This document shows, in pieces, positions 474 to 39,703 of a stretch of 39,703 nucleotides of DNA (the first letter of the stretch is position 1; each line of letters starts with the position of its first letter). Under the pieces are notes generated by a model, which did no database searches, was not told the DNA's origin, and was given only the letters and a program-made list of their open reading frames with translations. Source of the DNA: a virus. The stretch lies in the IMG/VR virus record IMGVR_UViG_3300034066_001287, positions 1 to 39,703 of that record; one strand, written 5' to 3'. Both the position numbers and the translations under genes were made by a program.

Positions 474-905
474 ATGGAAAATCAAACTACTGAAATGACT
501 CAAGTTCTTGTCAACACCTACCCTGCAAATGTTCAGGCAAAGATTGATGAACTGAAGGAACAAAACTATCATGATGAGGATATGTTTGACTTCATCAGTG
601 TCTATGGAAATGACAACTTCATTCAATTCTATGAAGAATATGTCAACTATGGTGAAGACTATTCTTATGAAGCAGTTGATGCTTTTGTAGATGAGTTTGG
701 TATTGATTGCATCTCAAACTTCTGTGATGCCTATTATGGACAGTTTGACAGTGAGGAACAATTTGCAGAGCAATTTGTTTCTGATTGCTATCCTATCAAT
801 CTGAATGATACTCCTATTGTTGTAGATTGGACTAAGACTTGGGAATGCAATCTTTACTATGATTTTGCATTTAATGATGGTTTTGTGTTCACCAAAAACT
901 TCTGA
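474..905 (+). CDS. ArdA-like antirestriction protein, 143 aa
   Basis: ArdA proteins are elongated acidic DNA mimics that bind type I restriction-modification enzymes in the cytoplasm and block them. This product is very rich in Asp and Glu. Its second half matches the ArdA layout as I remember it: an acidic AVDAFVDEFG / FCDAYYGQFDSEEQFAEQ section, then a C-terminal VDWTKTWECNLYYDF and NDGFVF resembling the ArdA ending (YIDYEAxxRDLxx...dGxxF). At 143 residues it is somewhat shorter than classical ArdA (about 165), so the N-terminal domain is reduced. The ATG at 474 sits at the predicted transcription start of its own promoter; a second in-frame ATG at 495 is possible. An antirestriction role is inferred from similarity only. 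Confidence 0.6.
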   Translation: MENQTTEMTQVLVNTYPANVQAKIDELKEQNYHDEDMFDFISVYGNDNFIQFYEEYVNYGEDYSYEAVDAFVDEFGIDCISNFCDAYYGQFDSEEQFAEQFVSDCYPINLNDTPIVVDWTKTWECNLYYDFAFNDGFVFTKNF

Positions 906-3539: not shown

Positions 3540-3755
3540 ATGAAAAGTTTCAGAGAATTTTTAAATGAGGCTGGGGATTGGTGGGATCCAGATCCTAAGA
3601 AGGATCGTAAGATTAGTGGATCTGCCAATAAGATGAGAGCACGTGAAGATCGTGGGGATGATACATCAGTACAGAAGAAACCAGATTATAGTAAAAGATT
3701 AATGCCAGGTGAGACTTATCTACAATTTGCTAATCGTAAGAAAGCAGGAAAATGA
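3540..3755 (+). CDS. putative internal head protein with capsid-targeting N-terminus, 71 aa
   Basis: The N-terminus MKSFREFLNEAGDWW matches the capsid-targeting sequence of T4 internal proteins (MKTYQEFIxEA), which sends proteins into the prohead core before the gp21 protease trims them. Residues 8-10 and 11 read L-N-E followed by A, which fits the T4 protease preference for cleavage after (L/I)-x-E. The product would be about 60 residues, Lys/Arg-rich, with PGETYLQFANRKKAGK at the end, suitable for packaging with DNA. AAAAGGAT upstream serves as ribosome binding site, a late motif precedes it, and its stop overlaps the next ATG (ATGA). Packaging is inferred from the N-terminus alone. Confidence 0.55.
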   Translation: MKSFREFLNEAGDWWDPDPKKDRKISGSANKMRAREDRGDDTSVQKKPDYSKRLMPGETYLQFANRKKAGK

Positions 3756-30205: not shown

Positions 30206-31060
30206 ATGCTTGGCAATTATTTCTACCACAAAACCATAAGTAAAACTGTAGTTGCTTTTGGAACTCTATTTAATAATATTCAAATTAGACACAATGATAA
30301 CAATGATAATCCGGTGTCTATATTAAAAGTTCCCCTTGCATATGGACCCATTCAAAAGTTTTTAGCAAGAGTTGAGCAAAATGCAAGTGGAGATAGAAAA
30401 ATTGCTTTGACTCTTCCAAGAATGTCATTTGAAATGACTTCTATTGATTATGACCCAACCAGAAAAGGTTCAGTAATACAAACTTTTAAAGCATCTAAAG
30501 TTGAAGATGGGAAGGCAGTAAATAAAGTTTTTATGCCAGTTCCTTATAATATTGGGTTTGAACTCAATATTTTGGGGAAACTTCAAGATGATGTTTTGCA
30601 GATTGTAGAGCAAATACTTCCATATTTTCAACCATCATTTAATGTAACAGTAAATCTTGTCCCTGAAATTGGAGAAAAAAGAGATATCCCTATTGTTTTG
30701 AATAGAATTGGATTTAGAGATGATTATGAGGATAATTTCAATTCCAGAAGGTTGCTGTATTATACTTTGAATTTTACTGCAAAAACTTATCTCTTTAATG
30801 AAGTTCCTGAAGATAGTCAAGGTCTCATTAAGAAAGTTCAGGTTGATTATGCAACAAATGCAATTATCAATGCTAAGAGGGAAGTCAGATATACAGTTAC
30901 ACCTAAAGCACTTCAAGACTATAATGGTGATGGTGTCATAGATTCTACTGATGATGAATTGATTCCATTTGGAGATGACTTTGGGTTCAATGACGAAATA
31001 GTAGATTTCCAAGACTTTAAGACATATAGCAATTCACAAGGAACTGATGTAGATATTTGA
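30206..31060 (+). CDS. gp15: tail sheath stabilizer and completion protein gp15, 284 aa
   Basis: gp15 caps the finished contractile tail and joins it to the neck. FYHKTISKTVVAFGTLFNNI, VPLAYGPIQKFLARVEQ, LPRMSFEMTSIDYDPTRKG and MPVPYNIGFELNILGKLQDD are strongly characteristic. The length is close to T4 gp15 (272). Residues 238-249 read DYNGDGVIDSTD, a canonical EF-hand/dockerin-type calcium loop (acidic or Asn at 1, 3, 5, 9, 12; Gly at 6; Ile at 8), in an acidic C-terminal extension. It heads the unit 15-16-fusion-17. Confidence 0.92.
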   Translation: MLGNYFYHKTISKTVVAFGTLFNNIQIRHNDNNDNPVSILKVPLAYGPIQKFLARVEQNASGDRKIALTLPRMSFEMTSIDYDPTRKGSVIQTFKASKVEDGKAVNKVFMPVPYNIGFELNILGKLQDDVLQIVEQILPYFQPSFNVTVNLVPEIGEKRDIPIVLNRIGFRDDYEDNFNSRRLLYYTLNFTAKTYLFNEVPEDSQGLIKKVQVDYATNAIINAKREVRYTVTPKALQDYNGDGVIDSTDDELIPFGDDFGFNDEIVDFQDFKTYSNSQGTDVDI

Positions 31061-31062
31061 TT

Positions 31063-31479
31063 ATGAATGATAAAAACTTTAAAGAAATTGAACAGGCTCT
31101 AGACATAGAAACAAAATTGGTTCCTGCAGATCCAGTGGAAATTGAATCTAAACCAGTTCCAAATGATCCCCAAAAGGATTATGAATATAGTAGAGGGCAA
31201 CTTTATAACCTTATAGAAAAAGGTCAGCAAGCTATTGATGGAATTCTAGAAGTAGCAGATAGTTCAAATCATCCAAGAGCATATGAAGTTGCAGGTCAAC
31301 TAATTAAATCTGTGGGGGATGTGACAGATAAATTATTGGATCTTCAAAAGAAGATGAAAGATTTAGATGCTCCTCAGAAAAATGGTCCAACAACTGTTAA
31401 TAATGCTTTGTTTGTAGGTTCTACTGCAGAATTATCCAAACTCCTAAAGCAAGGATTACTAAATAATAACGAAGAATAG
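31063..31479 (+). CDS. gp16: small terminase subunit gp16, 138 aa
   Basis: gp16 forms an oligomer that selects concatemeric DNA and regulates the gp17 motor. The central helix pair NLIEKGQQAIDGILEVADSS and HPRAYEVAGQLIKSVGDVTD, then KLLDLQKKMKDLD, is the T4-like small terminase signature. The C-terminal NNALFVGSTAELSKLLKQG is the conserved end. It is a little shorter than T4 gp16 (164). An in-frame TTG at 31057 overlaps the gp15 stop, but ATG 31063 is preferred. Unusually, the next gene is not gp17 but an inserted multidomain gene. Confidence 0.88.
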   Translation: MNDKNFKEIEQALDIETKLVPADPVEIESKPVPNDPQKDYEYSRGQLYNLIEKGQQAIDGILEVADSSNHPRAYEVAGQLIKSVGDVTDKLLDLQKKMKDLDAPQKNGPTTVNNALFVGSTAELSKLLKQGLLNNNEE

Positions 31480-31492
31480 TATAATCAATAGG

Positions 31493-32377
31493 ATGAAAGA
31501 TCCAAAAGGTCCTGTTAAGGCATATAAATCACCAGAGGAACTTGCAAAAAAGCATAAAGTTTCTTTGGATAAAATTATGAAGCAGGTAAAAATTGGAACT
31601 AAAGTTGAGGGAGAGCACACTACAAGCAAAGGGGATGCTAGAATTACAGCATTGCAGCATGTAGATGAACTTCCAGATTACTATACAAGACTTAAGAAAG
31701 TGGAAAAGAAAGGTCCTATGAAAGAAGAAACTACTGCAGAAAAGCAATACAAAGAAGATACTAAATATTGCCTTCTTTGTAGAAAGAACGAACATAGAGA
31801 AGAGTGTTCTTGGGGACCATCAATGTGGGACAGATATACCATTGCAAAAATTCATCCCACAAATGAATCAAAGATTCAGGAAGATCATAAAGAAATTTCT
31901 AGTGGGAAGAAGAAAGATGATGAAGGATATATGGCAAAAATTGAATTTGATCAAATTGAAAGATCAGTTAGTATTCTAAGAAGACTAATTAAGAAACCAG
32001 ATCAACAATTGCCAGCTTGGGTACAATCAAAAATTACTAGAGCAGCAGATTTTATTGATACTGCAGCAGAATATATGTCTAGTGATGAAGAGGTATCTGA
32101 AGGAAAAACATACTCTGAGTTTATGACTGAAGTTGCTGCTTGGCAACGTAAAGAGGGGAAAAGTGCTTCAGGTGGTCTCAATGAGAAAGGAAGAAAATCC
32201 TATGAAAGGGAGAATCCTGGAAGCGACCTTAAGGCACCTTCAAAGAAGGTTGGAAATCCCCGCAGGGCGTCATTTTGTGCCAGAATGAAGGGCATGAAAG
32301 CAAAATTAACTTCTGCTAAGACTGCTAGAGATCCAGATTCAAGAATCAATAAATCATTAAGAGCTTGGAATTGCTGA
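31493..32377 (+). CDS. multidomain protein between the terminase genes (DUF5661-like, CCHC motif, DUF6321-like), 294 aa
   Basis: Four sections are visible. Residues ~10-72 resemble DUF5661 (VEGEHTTSKGDARITALQHV, then DELPDYYTRLKK). Residues 93-105 hold C-x2-C-x4-H-x3-C (Cys93, Cys96, His101, Cys105), close to a zinc knuckle, followed by WGPSMWDRY. Residues ~143-195 have QQLPAWVQSKITRAADFIDT, a stretch I recall from marine phage proteins. Residues 205-213 (KTYSEFMTE) look like a capsid-targeting sequence, and the rest (AWQRKEGKSASGGLNEKGRK, PGSDLKAPSKK, NPRRASFCARM) resembles DUF6321. It is very basic and has AATAGG upstream. Position suggests packaging or a packaged DNA-binding protein; function not established. 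Confidence 0.75.
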   Translation: MKDPKGPVKAYKSPEELAKKHKVSLDKIMKQVKIGTKVEGEHTTSKGDARITALQHVDELPDYYTRLKKVEKKGPMKEETTAEKQYKEDTKYCLLCRKNEHREECSWGPSMWDRYTIAKIHPTNESKIQEDHKEISSGKKKDDEGYMAKIEFDQIERSVSILRRLIKKPDQQLPAWVQSKITRAADFIDTAAEYMSSDEEVSEGKTYSEFMTEVAAWQRKEGKSASGGLNEKGRKSYERENPGSDLKAPSKKVGNPRRASFCARMKGMKAKLTSAKTARDPDSRINKSLRAWNC

Positions 32378-32383
32378 TAAATT

Positions 32384-34033
32384 ATGAGTGATAATGTTTA
32401 TCTTGGTAATCCTCTTCTAAAGAAAGCCAATACACCTATTCAGTTTACAGAAGAGCAGATTTTAGAATTTGTCAAATGTAAGAATGATCCAGTTTATTTT
32501 GCAAAAAATTATGTCCAGATTGTTACCCTGGATCATGGTTTACAATTATTCAAACCATACCATTTTCAAGAGAAATTAATTAGTAATTTCCATAACAATA
32601 GATTCAACATTTGTAAGATGCCTAGACAGACAGGCAAATCTACAACTGTTGTTTCCTATTTGCTCCACTATGCAATTTTTAATGATAATGTAAATATTGC
32701 TATTCTTGCCAACAAAGCATCTACTGCTAGAGACTTGTTATCAAGATTACAAACTGCATATGAAAACCTACCAAAGTGGTTACAGCAAGGTATACTTGCT
32801 TGGAACAAAGGATCTATGGAGTTGGAAAATGGATCAAAGATATTGGCTGCTTCTACATCTGCATCTGCTGTCAGAGGTGGATCCTATAATATCATCTTCC
32901 TCGATGAGTTTGCATTTATTCCAAACCATATTGCAGACCAATTCTTTGCCTCTGTTTATCCTACTATATCTTCTGGTCAAAGCACAAAGGTAATTATTGT
33001 TTCCACTCCTCATGGAATGAATCATTTCTATAGGATGTGGCATGATGCTGAGAGGGGGATGAATGAATATGTCCCTACTGATGTTCATTGGAGTGAAGTT
33101 CCTGGAAGGGATGATAAGTGGAAAGCACAAACAATCTCCAACACATCAGAACAGCAATTCAAAGTTGAATTTGAGTGCGAATTTTTAGGATCAGTAGATA
33201 CTCTAATTGCTCCAAGTAAATTGAAAAGTTTAGTTTATGATAAACCAATCAAACAAAATAAAGGATTGGATGTGTATGAAGAATCAAAAGAAGATAGGGA
33301 TTATGTAATAACTGTGGATGTTGCCAGAGGAGTTGGTAATGACTACTCTGCATTTGTAGTTTTTGATATAACTACTTTCCCACATAAAATAGTAGCAAAG
33401 TATAGGAACAATGAAATCAAACCAATGCTATTCCCAAGCATTATTCATGAGGTTGCTAAAGCGTACAATAATGCATTTGTCCTTTGTGAAGTCAATGATG
33501 TAGGAGATCAAGTAGCTTCTATCATTCAATATGATTTAGAATATCAAAATTTGCTGATGTGTTCTATGAGAGGTAGAGCAGGGCAGATTGTTGGGCAGGG
33601 ATTTTCTGGGAAGAAGACACAACTAGGACTCAAGATGTCCAAGACAGTTAAAAAGGTTGGATGTCTCAATTTAAAAACAATGATTGAAGAAGATAAACTT
33701 TTCTTCAATGATTATGAGATCATTAGCGAATTAACTACATTTATTCAAAAGCACAATTCATTTGAAGCAGAAGAAGGATGTAATGATGACCTTGCAATGT
33801 GTTTGGTGATATATGCTTGGTTAGTTGCACAAGACTATTTCAAAGAACTCACTGATCAGGATGTTAGGAAAAGATTATATGAAGAACAAAAGAATCAAAT
33901 AGATCAAGATATGGCACCATTTGGATTTATCTTGACTGGAATAGATGATGAGACTCAATTTACAGATGCTGATGGGGATTTGTGGAAGGTAGACGAGTAT
34001 GGTGATAGATCATTTATGTGGGAATACAGGTAA
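32384..34033 (+). CDS. gp17: large terminase subunit gp17 (ATPase/nuclease), 549 aa
   Basis: The DNA packaging motor and headful nuclease. The ATPase domain shows Walker A MPRQTGKST (residues 79-87), Walker B IIFLDEF with Asp174-Glu175, and the coupling motif STPHG near 207. The RNase H-like nuclease domain shows VDVARGVGNDYSAF with Asp312, Glu369 in CEVNDVGDQ and Asp468/469 in CNDDLAMCLVIYAWL, matching the T4 catalytic triad D401/E458/D542. It is slightly shorter than T4 gp17 (610). ATG 32384 is 6 nt after the preceding stop. All key residues are present, so it should be active. Confidence 0.97.
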   Translation: MSDNVYLGNPLLKKANTPIQFTEEQILEFVKCKNDPVYFAKNYVQIVTLDHGLQLFKPYHFQEKLISNFHNNRFNICKMPRQTGKSTTVVSYLLHYAIFNDNVNIAILANKASTARDLLSRLQTAYENLPKWLQQGILAWNKGSMELENGSKILAASTSASAVRGGSYNIIFLDEFAFIPNHIADQFFASVYPTISSGQSTKVIIVSTPHGMNHFYRMWHDAERGMNEYVPTDVHWSEVPGRDDKWKAQTISNTSEQQFKVEFECEFLGSVDTLIAPSKLKSLVYDKPIKQNKGLDVYEESKEDRDYVITVDVARGVGNDYSAFVVFDITTFPHKIVAKYRNNEIKPMLFPSIIHEVAKAYNNAFVLCEVNDVGDQVASIIQYDLEYQNLLMCSMRGRAGQIVGQGFSGKKTQLGLKMSKTVKKVGCLNLKTMIEEDKLFFNDYEIISELTTFIQKHNSFEAEEGCNDDLAMCLVIYAWLVAQDYFKELTDQDVRKRLYEEQKNQIDQDMAPFGFILTGIDDETQFTDADGDLWKVDEYGDRSFMWEYR

Positions 34034-34087: not shown

Positions 34088-36730
34088 ATGGCGTTAAGCT
34101 TAGCATCTCCAGGGATTAAAGTAAGAGAAGTAGATTTGACAAGAGGTGGTATTAACAATACTACCTCCTTATCTGCTGGAATTGCTGGACCTTTTGAAAA
34201 AGGTCCAGTAAATGAAGCTATCACTATTCTTAATGAAAAGGAATTAGTAGATATCTTTGGAAGACCATCAAAGAATGATTACCATTATGAGTACTGGTAT
34301 TCAGCATCAAACTTCATGTCATATGGCGGAAGTTTAAAGGTAGTAAGATGTTCAGGTTCTGGATTAAACAATTCAAATGCTGGTGTTGGAGTAGGAACAA
34401 CAACATCACTTTTGATTGAGAACTATGATGATTATCAAGAAGATCATTCATCTGCCACCAATTTTTATTGGGCAGCAAAGAACCCAGGATATTGGGCTGA
34501 TGGACTCAAAGTTTGTGTAATTGATAACTTTGCAGACCAAACAATTGCTGGTGTAAATACAGCATCAATTCAAGTTGGTTATGCAGTTACTCAGGCACTT
34601 TCAGGAACTGTTGCTGGAGTAGGAACCACAGCAGCAGCATCAGGATTCCTCAAAGGTATTGTCACTGGAGTAGGATCCTCAGAATTTTATGTCAAGATTG
34701 TTTCTAAGGTAAGTGCAGGAACAACCACTGCACAAGAATATACTGAAAATGGAATCTATGCCTTCAATACAGGTTCTTCTCTGTATGTAGATGGTGCATT
34801 ATCCAATGCAGGAAACCCTGTTCTTTCAATCACAAGAAACAGTCCCTCAACTTCATTTGGTGCTAACTCAATTGGTTCAGGTACTTCATTATCAGTTTTA
34901 GATATTGCTGCTACAACAACAATTGATAATGCAGGAAGCACTCCATTACTGAATTCAGATACAACTTTATATGTTGCATCAGCAACTGGTATTACCACTG
35001 CTAAGTATCTCCTTATTGGTAATGAAATCTTAGATGTTATTTCAGTTTCTGGAAATCAAATTGGAGTAGCTAGATCAACATTTGGAACATCTGCTGAAGC
35101 ATCTGTTGCTGATGGAACTACTGTTAAAGTTTTAACTTACAATCAGAATGTTACCACTGCTTCTGCCACTGTAGATAGTTCTTCCACCACTGTAGAAGTT
35201 GCTTCAGTAGCAGGAATCACTGAAGGAGATTATGTAATAAATGAATCTACTGATGAAATTTTCTTAGTCAACTCAATTTCACAATCTGCAGTAGTCACTT
35301 CATCCGCAATTAATGATTGGTATAATACACAAAATATTTTAGATACTGCAAGAGGTGATAGTGCAACAGTTTCTTGGAGAAGCATTGCTCCAAAACCAAG
35401 AACAAACCAATATGTAAGAGATAGAAATGGCAACAATGATGCTCTTCATGTTGTAGTTGTAGATAGTGCAAGATCCAAGAATATTTCAGGTTCATCTCAA
35501 ACAATCTTAGAAAAGTTCACTAACTTGTCTAAGGCAACTGATACTGAAATTTCACCATCACAGGGTGTATACTACAAGGATTATGTTGCTCTCAACTCTG
35601 CATACATTTATGCAGGTAAGTCTATTGGAGATAATGCAACAGATGCTTATTGGGGAATAGATCCTGTAGCAACTAAGTTCTCCTCAGGTAATACACCACA
35701 ATCAGAGAGTTTAGGTGTTTGGGATGTTGAATGTGATAATGTAACATTTAACTCTGTTGGAAATAAGGCATTCACCTTAACAGGTGGAAAGGATTACAGT
35801 GGTGAAAATGGTGTTGGTGGATTTGCAATTACTTTATCTGATATTGTTGATGCCTATGACAAACTTTCCAATGCAGATGAAGTTCCATTGAACTTCTTGC
35901 TCCAGGGAAGTGCTTCATTAGGAAAAGAAATTGAGCAGGCAAAAGCAAATACTATCATCAGTATTGCAGAGAATAGAAAGGATTGTGTTGCTTTCATCTC
36001 ACCATATAGAGAGGGAGTTGTAAATGTTGCACAAACATCAACACAACTGGCAAATATTCTTTCATTCTTCAGTCCATTAACATCTTCATCATATGCAGTG
36101 TTTGATAGTGGATACCAATATGTTTATGATAGATACAACAAAGAGTTTGTTTACATTCCTTGCTCTGGAGATACTGCTGGTCTTTGTGTAAGAACTGATA
36201 TCAATCAGTTCCCATGGTACTCACCCGCAGGAAAGGTCAGAGGTACTTTGAGATTCCCAATTAAACTTTCCTACAATCCCAATCAAGATGATAGGGACAA
36301 ACTTTATTCACAAAGAATTAATCCAATAATTTCCTCACCAGGATCTGGAATTATTCTCTTTGGTGACAAGACTGCACTCTCATACACTTCAGCATTTGAT
36401 AGAATCAATGTCAGAAGACTGTTCATCACCATTGAGCAGGCTATTAAGAGTGCTGCTGATGCTCAACTCTTTGAGTTTAATGATGCAGCAACAAGAGCAA
36501 ACTTTATCAATATTGTTGAACCATACTTAAGAGATGTTCAGGCAAAGAGAGGTATTCAAGACTTCCTCTTAGTTTGTGATGATTCAAACAATACTACAGA
36601 TGTAATTGATAGAAATGAGTTTATTGCAGATATATATGTAAAACCTGCTCGTTCTATTAACTTTATTGGACTTACATTTGTTGCTACAAGAACTGGTGTT
36701 TCTTTTGAAACAGTAGTAGGAACAGTTTAA
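34088..36730 (+). CDS. gp18: tail sheath protein gp18, 880 aa
   Basis: Contractile sheath subunit. The N-terminus SLASPGIKVREVDLTRGGIN with TTSLSAGIAGPFEKGPVNEA and the C-terminus KPARSINFIGLTFVATRTGV are diagnostic. The conserved core includes NQFPWYSPAGKVRGTLRFPI and INVRRLFITIEQAIKSAADA. At 880 residues it exceeds T4 gp18 (659). Much of the excess is an insert at about 280-405 holding two copies of a beta module (DTTLYVASATGITTAKYLLI; TTVEVASVAGITEGDYVI), similar to modules in the giant baseplate proteins. It has GAGGAG 5 nt from ATG, and gp19 follows 20 nt after the stop. Confidence 0.96.
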   Translation: MALSLASPGIKVREVDLTRGGINNTTSLSAGIAGPFEKGPVNEAITILNEKELVDIFGRPSKNDYHYEYWYSASNFMSYGGSLKVVRCSGSGLNNSNAGVGVGTTTSLLIENYDDYQEDHSSATNFYWAAKNPGYWADGLKVCVIDNFADQTIAGVNTASIQVGYAVTQALSGTVAGVGTTAAASGFLKGIVTGVGSSEFYVKIVSKVSAGTTTAQEYTENGIYAFNTGSSLYVDGALSNAGNPVLSITRNSPSTSFGANSIGSGTSLSVLDIAATTTIDNAGSTPLLNSDTTLYVASATGITTAKYLLIGNEILDVISVSGNQIGVARSTFGTSAEASVADGTTVKVLTYNQNVTTASATVDSSSTTVEVASVAGITEGDYVINESTDEIFLVNSISQSAVVTSSAINDWYNTQNILDTARGDSATVSWRSIAPKPRTNQYVRDRNGNNDALHVVVVDSARSKNISGSSQTILEKFTNLSKATDTEISPSQGVYYKDYVALNSAYIYAGKSIGDNATDAYWGIDPVATKFSSGNTPQSESLGVWDVECDNVTFNSVGNKAFTLTGGKDYSGENGVGGFAITLSDIVDAYDKLSNADEVPLNFLLQGSASLGKEIEQAKANTIISIAENRKDCVAFISPYREGVVNVAQTSTQLANILSFFSPLTSSSYAVFDSGYQYVYDRYNKEFVYIPCSGDTAGLCVRTDINQFPWYSPAGKVRGTLRFPIKLSYNPNQDDRDKLYSQRINPIISSPGSGIILFGDKTALSYTSAFDRINVRRLFITIEQAIKSAADAQLFEFNDAATRANFINIVEPYLRDVQAKRGIQDFLLVCDDSNNTTDVIDRNEFIADIYVKPARSINFIGLTFVATRTGVSFETVVGTV

Positions 36731-39294: not shown

Positions 39295-39703
39295 GTGGAT
39301 AAGGAGTTAAAGGACTTCTTTAAAACAATAAAGTCAGCAAAAAAAGAACAAAAAGAATCTATGCAGGAGATTCTTGGAAATTCTTTTTTTGAAGACTTTG
39401 TTAAGCCTTTGGCAAAGGAATATAAAAAACCAAAGGATGTTGAGGTTGTTGAAGAAAAAATAATAGAAGAAGAGGTAATAGAAGAAAAGACTTTAATTGA
39501 AAAGTCTTTAGGACTTCTTTCAGAACCCTCAAATACTAAACAGCAAAAAGATCCACTCACTCCATTAGATCAAAACTTCGCAACACTTGATGATTTACAA
39601 AAACATTACAGTACTTTCCTTTCTCGTATTCAACAACAACTCTCCACATTAGGTGGAGGTGGAGAAACCAGATTAAGATACTTAGATGATATTGTAGGTA
39701 TTG
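39295..39703 (+). CDS. N-terminal part of a virion structural protein (cut by window end)
   Basis: GTG 39295 follows AGGAG (about 39284-39288) with ideal spacing, and the frame is open to the window end (136 codons). The first ~100 residues are charged and helical (IKSAKKEQKESMQEILGN; DVEVVEEKIIEEEVIEEK), probably coiled coil. Around 125 comes a Gly-rich hinge and ETRLRYLDDIVGI. In marine T4-like phages the hinge plus RLRYLDDIV segment introduces repeated structural domains, so this is likely a fibre-like or head-decoration protein. T4 would have gp68/gp21 here. Confidence 0.6.
   Translation, partial: MDKELKDFFKTIKSAKKEQKESMQEILGNSFFEDFVKPLAKEYKKPKDVEVVEEKIIEEEVIEEKTLIEKSLGLLSEPSNTKQQKDPLTPLDQNFATLDDLQKHYSTFLSRIQQQLSTLGGGGETRLRYLDDIVGI

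Follow-up and report, generated by a model that had tools for sequence, protein, structure and literature searches.

A shuffled-module protein encoded between the terminase genes of a T4-like cyanophage as a putative precursor of an internal head protein

The gene P0001 of a T4-like cyanophage probably encodes a precursor that is cut by the prohead protease, with its C-terminal DUF6321 part being released and packed in the head as the internal proteins of T4 are; from the sequence signatures described below, we put the probability of this reading at about three in four. P0001 lies in a window of 39,703 nt (IMG/VR record IMGVR_UViG_3300034066_001287), which is the whole stretch of DNA analyzed and which ends short of the expected gp21 position, so that the protease gp21 of this genome is out of view. 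The reading would give a testable role to a domain found in approximately 550 phage records, mainly of cyanophages, with no stated function (Pfam assigns DUF6321 none, and no mention of it was found in the literature searched). It further suggests that internal proteins are packaged by cyanophages as they are in T4, but through modular precursors.

Location and parts of P0001

The ORF call and PHROG matches bear out the earlier note's claim of a 294-aa ORF between gp16 and gp17 (Table 1); it starts 13 bases after gp16 and ends 6 bases before gp17. The same note described the gene as inserted between the terminase genes, and while the position stands, the idea of a special insertion does not: the gp16-gp17 interval of cyanophages is a known hot-spot (Sullivan 2010, PMC3037559, which cites Millard 2009), and a gene at this place is therefore ordinary. 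The gene is found immediately after gp16 in 86 relatives and immediately before gp17 in 72, and 74 gathered DUF6321 proteins, counted at loci with both markers, have gp16 upstream and gp17 downstream. The hot-spot genes share their genomic location and host group with P0001, but they are presented as variable genes and not as head precursors linked by protease sites (PMC3037559).

Table 1. Coordinates of P0001, its parts, its neighbors, and P0002 in the window
Feature	Position	Strand	Basis or remark
gp16, terminase small subunit TerS (context)	31057..31479	+	phrog_445
P0001, 294-aa precursor	31493..32377	+	ATG start, stop codon included; ORF call
DUF5661 module, residues 14-73	31532..31711	+	Pfam PF18905, E 3e-13
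Three-cysteine motif C93-x2-C96-x8-C105, residues 92-105	31766..31807	+	His101 not conserved
Candidate prohead-protease P1 Glu130 (KIQE/DHKE, cut at the slash) before helical module	31880..31882	+	[ILVM]xE upstream
Conserved helical module, residues 132-196	31886..32080	+	Other orders and combinations in relatives; two helices in model
Candidate P1 Glu203 (EEVSE-GKTY)	32099..32101	+	Alignment; some relatives pass directly into GAAW here
Capsid-targeting-like KTYSEFMTE, residues 205-213, Glu213 the predicted P1	32105..32131	+	28 contexts, T4 IPII/IPIII, stand-alone gene
Predicted mature C-terminal protein, residues 214-294, DUF6321	32132..32374	+	Pfam PF19846, charge, helical model
gp17, terminase large subunit TerL (context)	32384..34033	+	phrog_2
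P0002, second gene of the same style, 71 aa, MKSFREFLNE-AGDWWDPDP...	3540..3755	+	CTS scan, then homology

The DUF5661-like and DUF6321-like parts that had been recognized earlier both exceed the Pfam gathering scores, DUF5661 with 50.2 bits (cut-off, 27) and DUF6321 at residues 222-292 with 79.9 bits (cut-off, 28.5; E 2e-22). P0001 is also basic, as had been stated (net charge of +15, pI 9.4), and the charge resides almost wholly in residues 214-294 (+14), leaving the N-terminal part near neutral (+1). The predicted mature DUF6321 product, rich in Lys and Arg, would have 81 aa, 8.9 kDa, a net charge of +14, and a pI of 10.7.

A C-x2-C-x4-H-x3-C motif had also been proposed. The His occurs in 1 of 35 distinct motifs of relatives, and a zinc-knuckle reading fails for that reason; P0001 moreover has only three Cys and a spacing of x3 where a CCHC knuckle has C-x2-C-x4-H-x4-C. 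What is kept in the family is the pattern C-x2-C-x8-C (41/41 relatives).

AlphaFold2 models the whole protein as separate small helical units (mean pLDDT of 70) with weak linkers at residues 73-85, 119-130, and 198-205; because the pTM is low (0.27), we do not interpret the domain arrangement. The DUF6321 tail alone is modeled as compact and helical (pLDDT of 84). Its profile had no sequence match in the PDB, and a fold search was likewise empty, while a BFVD fold search returned mainly DUF6321 and unnamed phage proteins, with an S-SCSM1 virion protein as the best match. NCBIfam and PADLOC searches gave no match. Weak matches of P0001 to the Pin1 WW domain (E 0.3 and up) were judged to be due to chance.

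Module shuffling and stand-alone relatives

P0001 or its tail was matched by tblastn in 549 phage records, mostly of Synechococcus and Prochlorococcus phages, and IMG/VR scans gave >200 loci. The last 81 residues are 80 to 90% identical in most relatives, and the upstream part is wholly different from one relative to another. Eight modules, four of which are the DUF6321, DUF5661, three-cysteine, and helical parts of P0001, occur in 57 combinations among 228 distinct proteins, with DUF6321 nearly always last. From these sequences it looks as if hundreds of cyanophages carry shuffled modules at the gp16-gp17 spot, joined by apparent cutting sites.

The earlier note had suggested the fusion of a formerly separate head protein, to be checked by searching for stand-alone homologues of residues 205-294, and such homologues were found. 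S-CREM1_179, two genes before TerL at the same locus, begins MKTYNDFITE-VAAWQRKEG and, read as MKTYNDFITE-VAAWQRKEGKNKEGG, corresponds to P0001 residues 205-294 as an independent gene that starts at a Met of its own. Seven stand-alone genes of 92 to 93 aa in metagenomic phages encode the same piece; other stand-alone starts are MKSYSELKNLTE-AAW, MKNYKEFKELAE-AAW, and MKSFKQLRSDITE-AAW.

A targeting-like segment next to the tail

KTYSEFMTE is identical to MKTYQEFIAE of T4 IPII/IPIII at 6 of 9 positions. Of 162 tail proteins, 34 have a strict targeting-like motif beside the tail, and the frequency of such a motif among 15-mers from the remaining ORFs of these loci is 0.01%, which upholds the resemblance to a capsid-targeting sequence (CTS) that had been noticed before. 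Among 28 distinct EVAAWQ contexts, positions 3 (T/S), 4 (Y/F), 7 (F), and 8 (I/M/L) are constrained and positions 5, 6, and 9 are freer, with the Glu at position 10 being fixed by the selection of contexts; in the 83 contexts of the other kind, constraint is limited to position 8 (10 again by selection). In T4 IPIII, targeting is affected by residues 4 and 7 and processing by residues 8 and 10 (PMC9026906). The corresponding residues of P0001 are Y207 (4), F210 (7), M211 (8, with Met replacing Ile), and E213 (10).

The segment is internal in P0001 and N-terminal in the stand-alone relatives. It sits between EEVSE-G and VAAW, and because some relatives without it pass from ..EEYVAE directly into GAAW, it looks like a fusion joint.

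A conserved Glu before DUF6321 as a candidate gp21 site

The first Trp of DUF6321 is preceded by a Glu at a distance of 2 to 6 residues in all 155 distinct T4-type proteins; the surrounding sequence is otherwise variable, and the residues that follow this last Glu are most often G, V, A, or S and then AAW. When upstream contexts were thinned to <50% identity, 55 dissimilar contexts remained. A Glu stands no more than 4 residues from the module in 52 of them, against an expectation of 27% taken from elsewhere in these proteins, and [ILVM]xE is found in 40 (expectation, 8%; binomial p ~1e-32, a calculation that treats the contexts as independent). All 159 T4-type relatives examined (159/159) have the Glu at the site corresponding to 213, usually within [ILVM]xE, which fits the cut that the earlier note proposed after this residue. 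This motif also occurs inside P0001 domains (VDE59 and LNE231) and is thus by itself no proof of cutting. As an alternative cut site, LNE231 was ranked below 213, since its Glu is missing in 14 of the 159 relatives and that of 213 in none.

The cleavage rule of gp21 is L/I-x-E, and T4 prefers Leu or Ile at P3 (PMC9026906). P3 of the predicted P0001 site is Met; among the 28 close contexts, it is Met or Leu in 14 and Ile in 13. By analogy with T4, gp21-like sites can also be recognized in the major capsid proteins of P-SSM2 (NFLSE-A), S-SCSM1 (SFLAE-A), and S-CREM2 (LLTE-A), as well as on relatives' contigs (FLSE-A, FISE-A, FLTE-A, and similar candidates), and gp21 is present on 9 of the 11 longer contigs of relatives.

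As a control, DUF6321 is free-standing and without an upstream Glu in 10/10 phages that, judging by their records, do not belong to the T4 structural type. They comprise the T7-like P-SCSP1u, S-SBP1, S-CBP4, and HTVC119P, together with Greip, HTVC104P, Skadi-2, MEP402, DSL-LC05, and MaMV-CH02, and their proteins, of 78 to 101 aa, begin at the domain. T7-like phages are not known to have a maturation protease. The free-standing copies without Glu argue that the Glu serves a protease and not the fold. In a genome collection, the Glu is kept at 6 of 7 loci with T4 markers, the exception (L286) being a divergent copy with a single gp17 match, and most copies at loci without such markers start at the domain; several of these matches probably represent phage contigs that were binned with MAGs and are loose controls only.

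Other modules and P0002, a further gene of similar style

[ILVM]xE also occurs within 4 residues upstream of other modules in dissimilar contexts, namely, the helical module (11/12), YTVF (19/21), KWF (9/14), DACY (9/19), and CWDGY (15/40), with 7 to 9% expected; module starts were set by eye from few sequences, and that of YTVF was revised once after inspection. The three-cysteine module has such a boundary in 0 of 14 contexts.

A scan of the window for CTS-like starts revealed P0002, which starts MKSFREFLNE-AGDWWDPDPKKDRK and reads MKSFREFLNEAGDWWDPDPKKDRK...; this gene was found by motif first, and homology was established afterwards. Its body, matched in 128 cyanophage records, is homologous to a module fused inside the DUF6321 proteins of other cyanophages, where it follows VVAE-R, LHE-, or LNE-R.

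Small genes beside TerL have starts with a cut-like Glu at three other loci (L083:5702-6016, MKSFQQFLSE-S; L084:5657-5977, MKTFKQFMSE-S; and L234:2394-2723, MKSYKQFLSE-S), and the S-CREM1 gene among these corresponds to the YTVF module that larger DUF6321 proteins contain. A segment WRxELxxxE, as in SWRDDFEFVNE and SWRDELDLQE, recurs before a cut-like Glu at loci L086, L083, and L084 (P-SSM2, S-T4, and S-SCSM1) and is possibly another targeting signal.

Virion detection of relatives and alternative explanations

ORF29 of S-SCSM1, a 517-aa protein with a DUF6321 tail, is labeled as a virion protein in its GenBank record, and 45 virion proteins of this phage are reported from mass spectrometry (PMC9602691). 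In S-CREM2, ORF136, which begins MQTFSMFFSE, and ORF137, which has DUF6321 (E 3.5e-10), both lie between TerS and TerL and are listed among the virion proteins, with 8 and 4 unique peptides, respectively (PMC10665884, Table 3). A picture in which stand-alone pieces do not exist and the protein is absent from virions is thus contradicted, as the pieces exist and two relatives have been detected in virions by mass spectrometry. No mention of the DUF6321 gene of P-SCSP1u was found in the cryo-EM paper on that phage.

Presence of the S-SCSM1 homologue in virions (PMC9602691) weighs against the alternative that survives best, which we nevertheless consider unlikely: that the precursor is a component of the prohead core or scaffold, cut by gp21, with most fragments leaving the head and with a role in assembly rather than as cargo. 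T4 gp22, gp67, and gp68 are fragmented and for the most part lost (PMC9026906), the long propeptides of SPN3US are cut several times (PMC10052503), and the near-neutral N-terminal part of P0001 could be such a propeptide; the reported mass spectrometry coverage of S-CREM2 ORF137 is also low (4.1%; PMC10665884). However, DUF6321 persists as a free-standing protein in T7-like phages, which are without a T4-type core, and hence has a use of its own.

It is quite improbable that the Glu is instead a structural element of the DUF6321 fold and that P0001 is an uncut head or DNA-binding protein. Glu is indeed frequent in these linkers, as the 27% background per 4 residues indicates, but it lies anywhere from 2 to 6 residues before the domain, it is missing in all 10 free-standing copies, and five unrelated modules obey the same rule.

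PHROG, PDB, and fold searches revealed no homology of P0001 to packaging proteins, and terminases are not known to be part of the virion. The earlier note had considered a packaging factor. An accessory role of this kind or as a terminase component, acting with gp16 and gp17 outside the head, would fit the 74 loci with both markers and a basic tail that could bind DNA, but it is the least credible reading, since this interval is a recognized hot-spot for genes (PMC3037559), the position varies (the DUF6321 gene of P-SSM2 precedes gp16, and that of Syn9 has metabolic genes downstream), free-standing copies in some other phages lie near capsid or scaffold genes, and both the virion detection of relatives and the protease-site signature speak against it.

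Proposed mechanism and comparison with known head proteins

Under the preferred reading, a precursor of a packaged internal protein, P0001 would enter the prohead core, where gp21, the prohead protease of T4-type phages, would cut it after Glu213 and probably also after Glu203 and Glu130. This would free the DUF6321 part inside the head as a basic protein of 81 residues, which would remain with the DNA and may be ejected into the host. KTYSEFMTE would have come with the DUF6321 part through fusion of a stand-alone internal-head-protein gene, and it still has the residues for targeting and cleavage. Larger relatives would represent the same principle at a bigger scale, with shuffled modules joined by gp21-type sites.

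By analogy, P0001 is best read as working like the CTS proteins of T4, although it falls outside the strict class because its targeting segment is internal and its cut is a predicted one. It shares with T4 IPI, IPII, and IPIII the key targeting residues, a Glu at the predicted cut position, a small basic (in P0001, predicted) mature protein, and the T4-type phage background, with gp21 being present in relatives. In contrast to the N-terminal segment of the T4 proteins, that of P0001 follows a multidomain part of 204 residues; the mature domain has no detected homology to the T4 internal proteins, and relatives of P0001 carry many modules per chain. T4 Alt and the ejection proteins of SPN3US and phiKZ are likewise packaged substrates of the prohead protease, with several cuts in some of them (PMC10052503), but each yields one mature product and a propeptide, whereas the P0001 family has several conserved, shuffled modules that are apparently joined by sites. 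The DUF6321 proteins that Pfam lists for cyanophages and pelagiphages have the same domain (PF19846), as do the free-standing proteins of T7-like phages, which are without the targeting segment and site.

A further-reaching proposal, which we hold tentatively and with slightly more doubt than confidence, is that the gp16-gp17 hot-spot encodes a true head polyprotein of interchangeable modules, most of which follow a gp21-type site, so that several would be loaded per targeting event for delivery with the DNA. Recombination would reshuffle the cargo, and single modules could leave as stand-alone genes with a targeting sequence. If each chain sets several modules free, the head would be loaded from a single gene with a varying set of proteins, and the phage would have a new means of changing what it may inject.

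Other features of the window

An ORF at 474-905 (+) matches phrog_36653 (E 1e-29), whose annotation is anti-restriction protein. A GTG-started, Glu/Lys-rich ORF at 39295-39702 (+), open at the window end and located between gp20 and the place where gp21 is expected, has partial similarity to phrog_28992 and phrog_28263. The tail sheath protein of 880 aa (34088-36730, +) seems to hold a large insertion, since its whole length aligns to a sheath profile of 496 positions.
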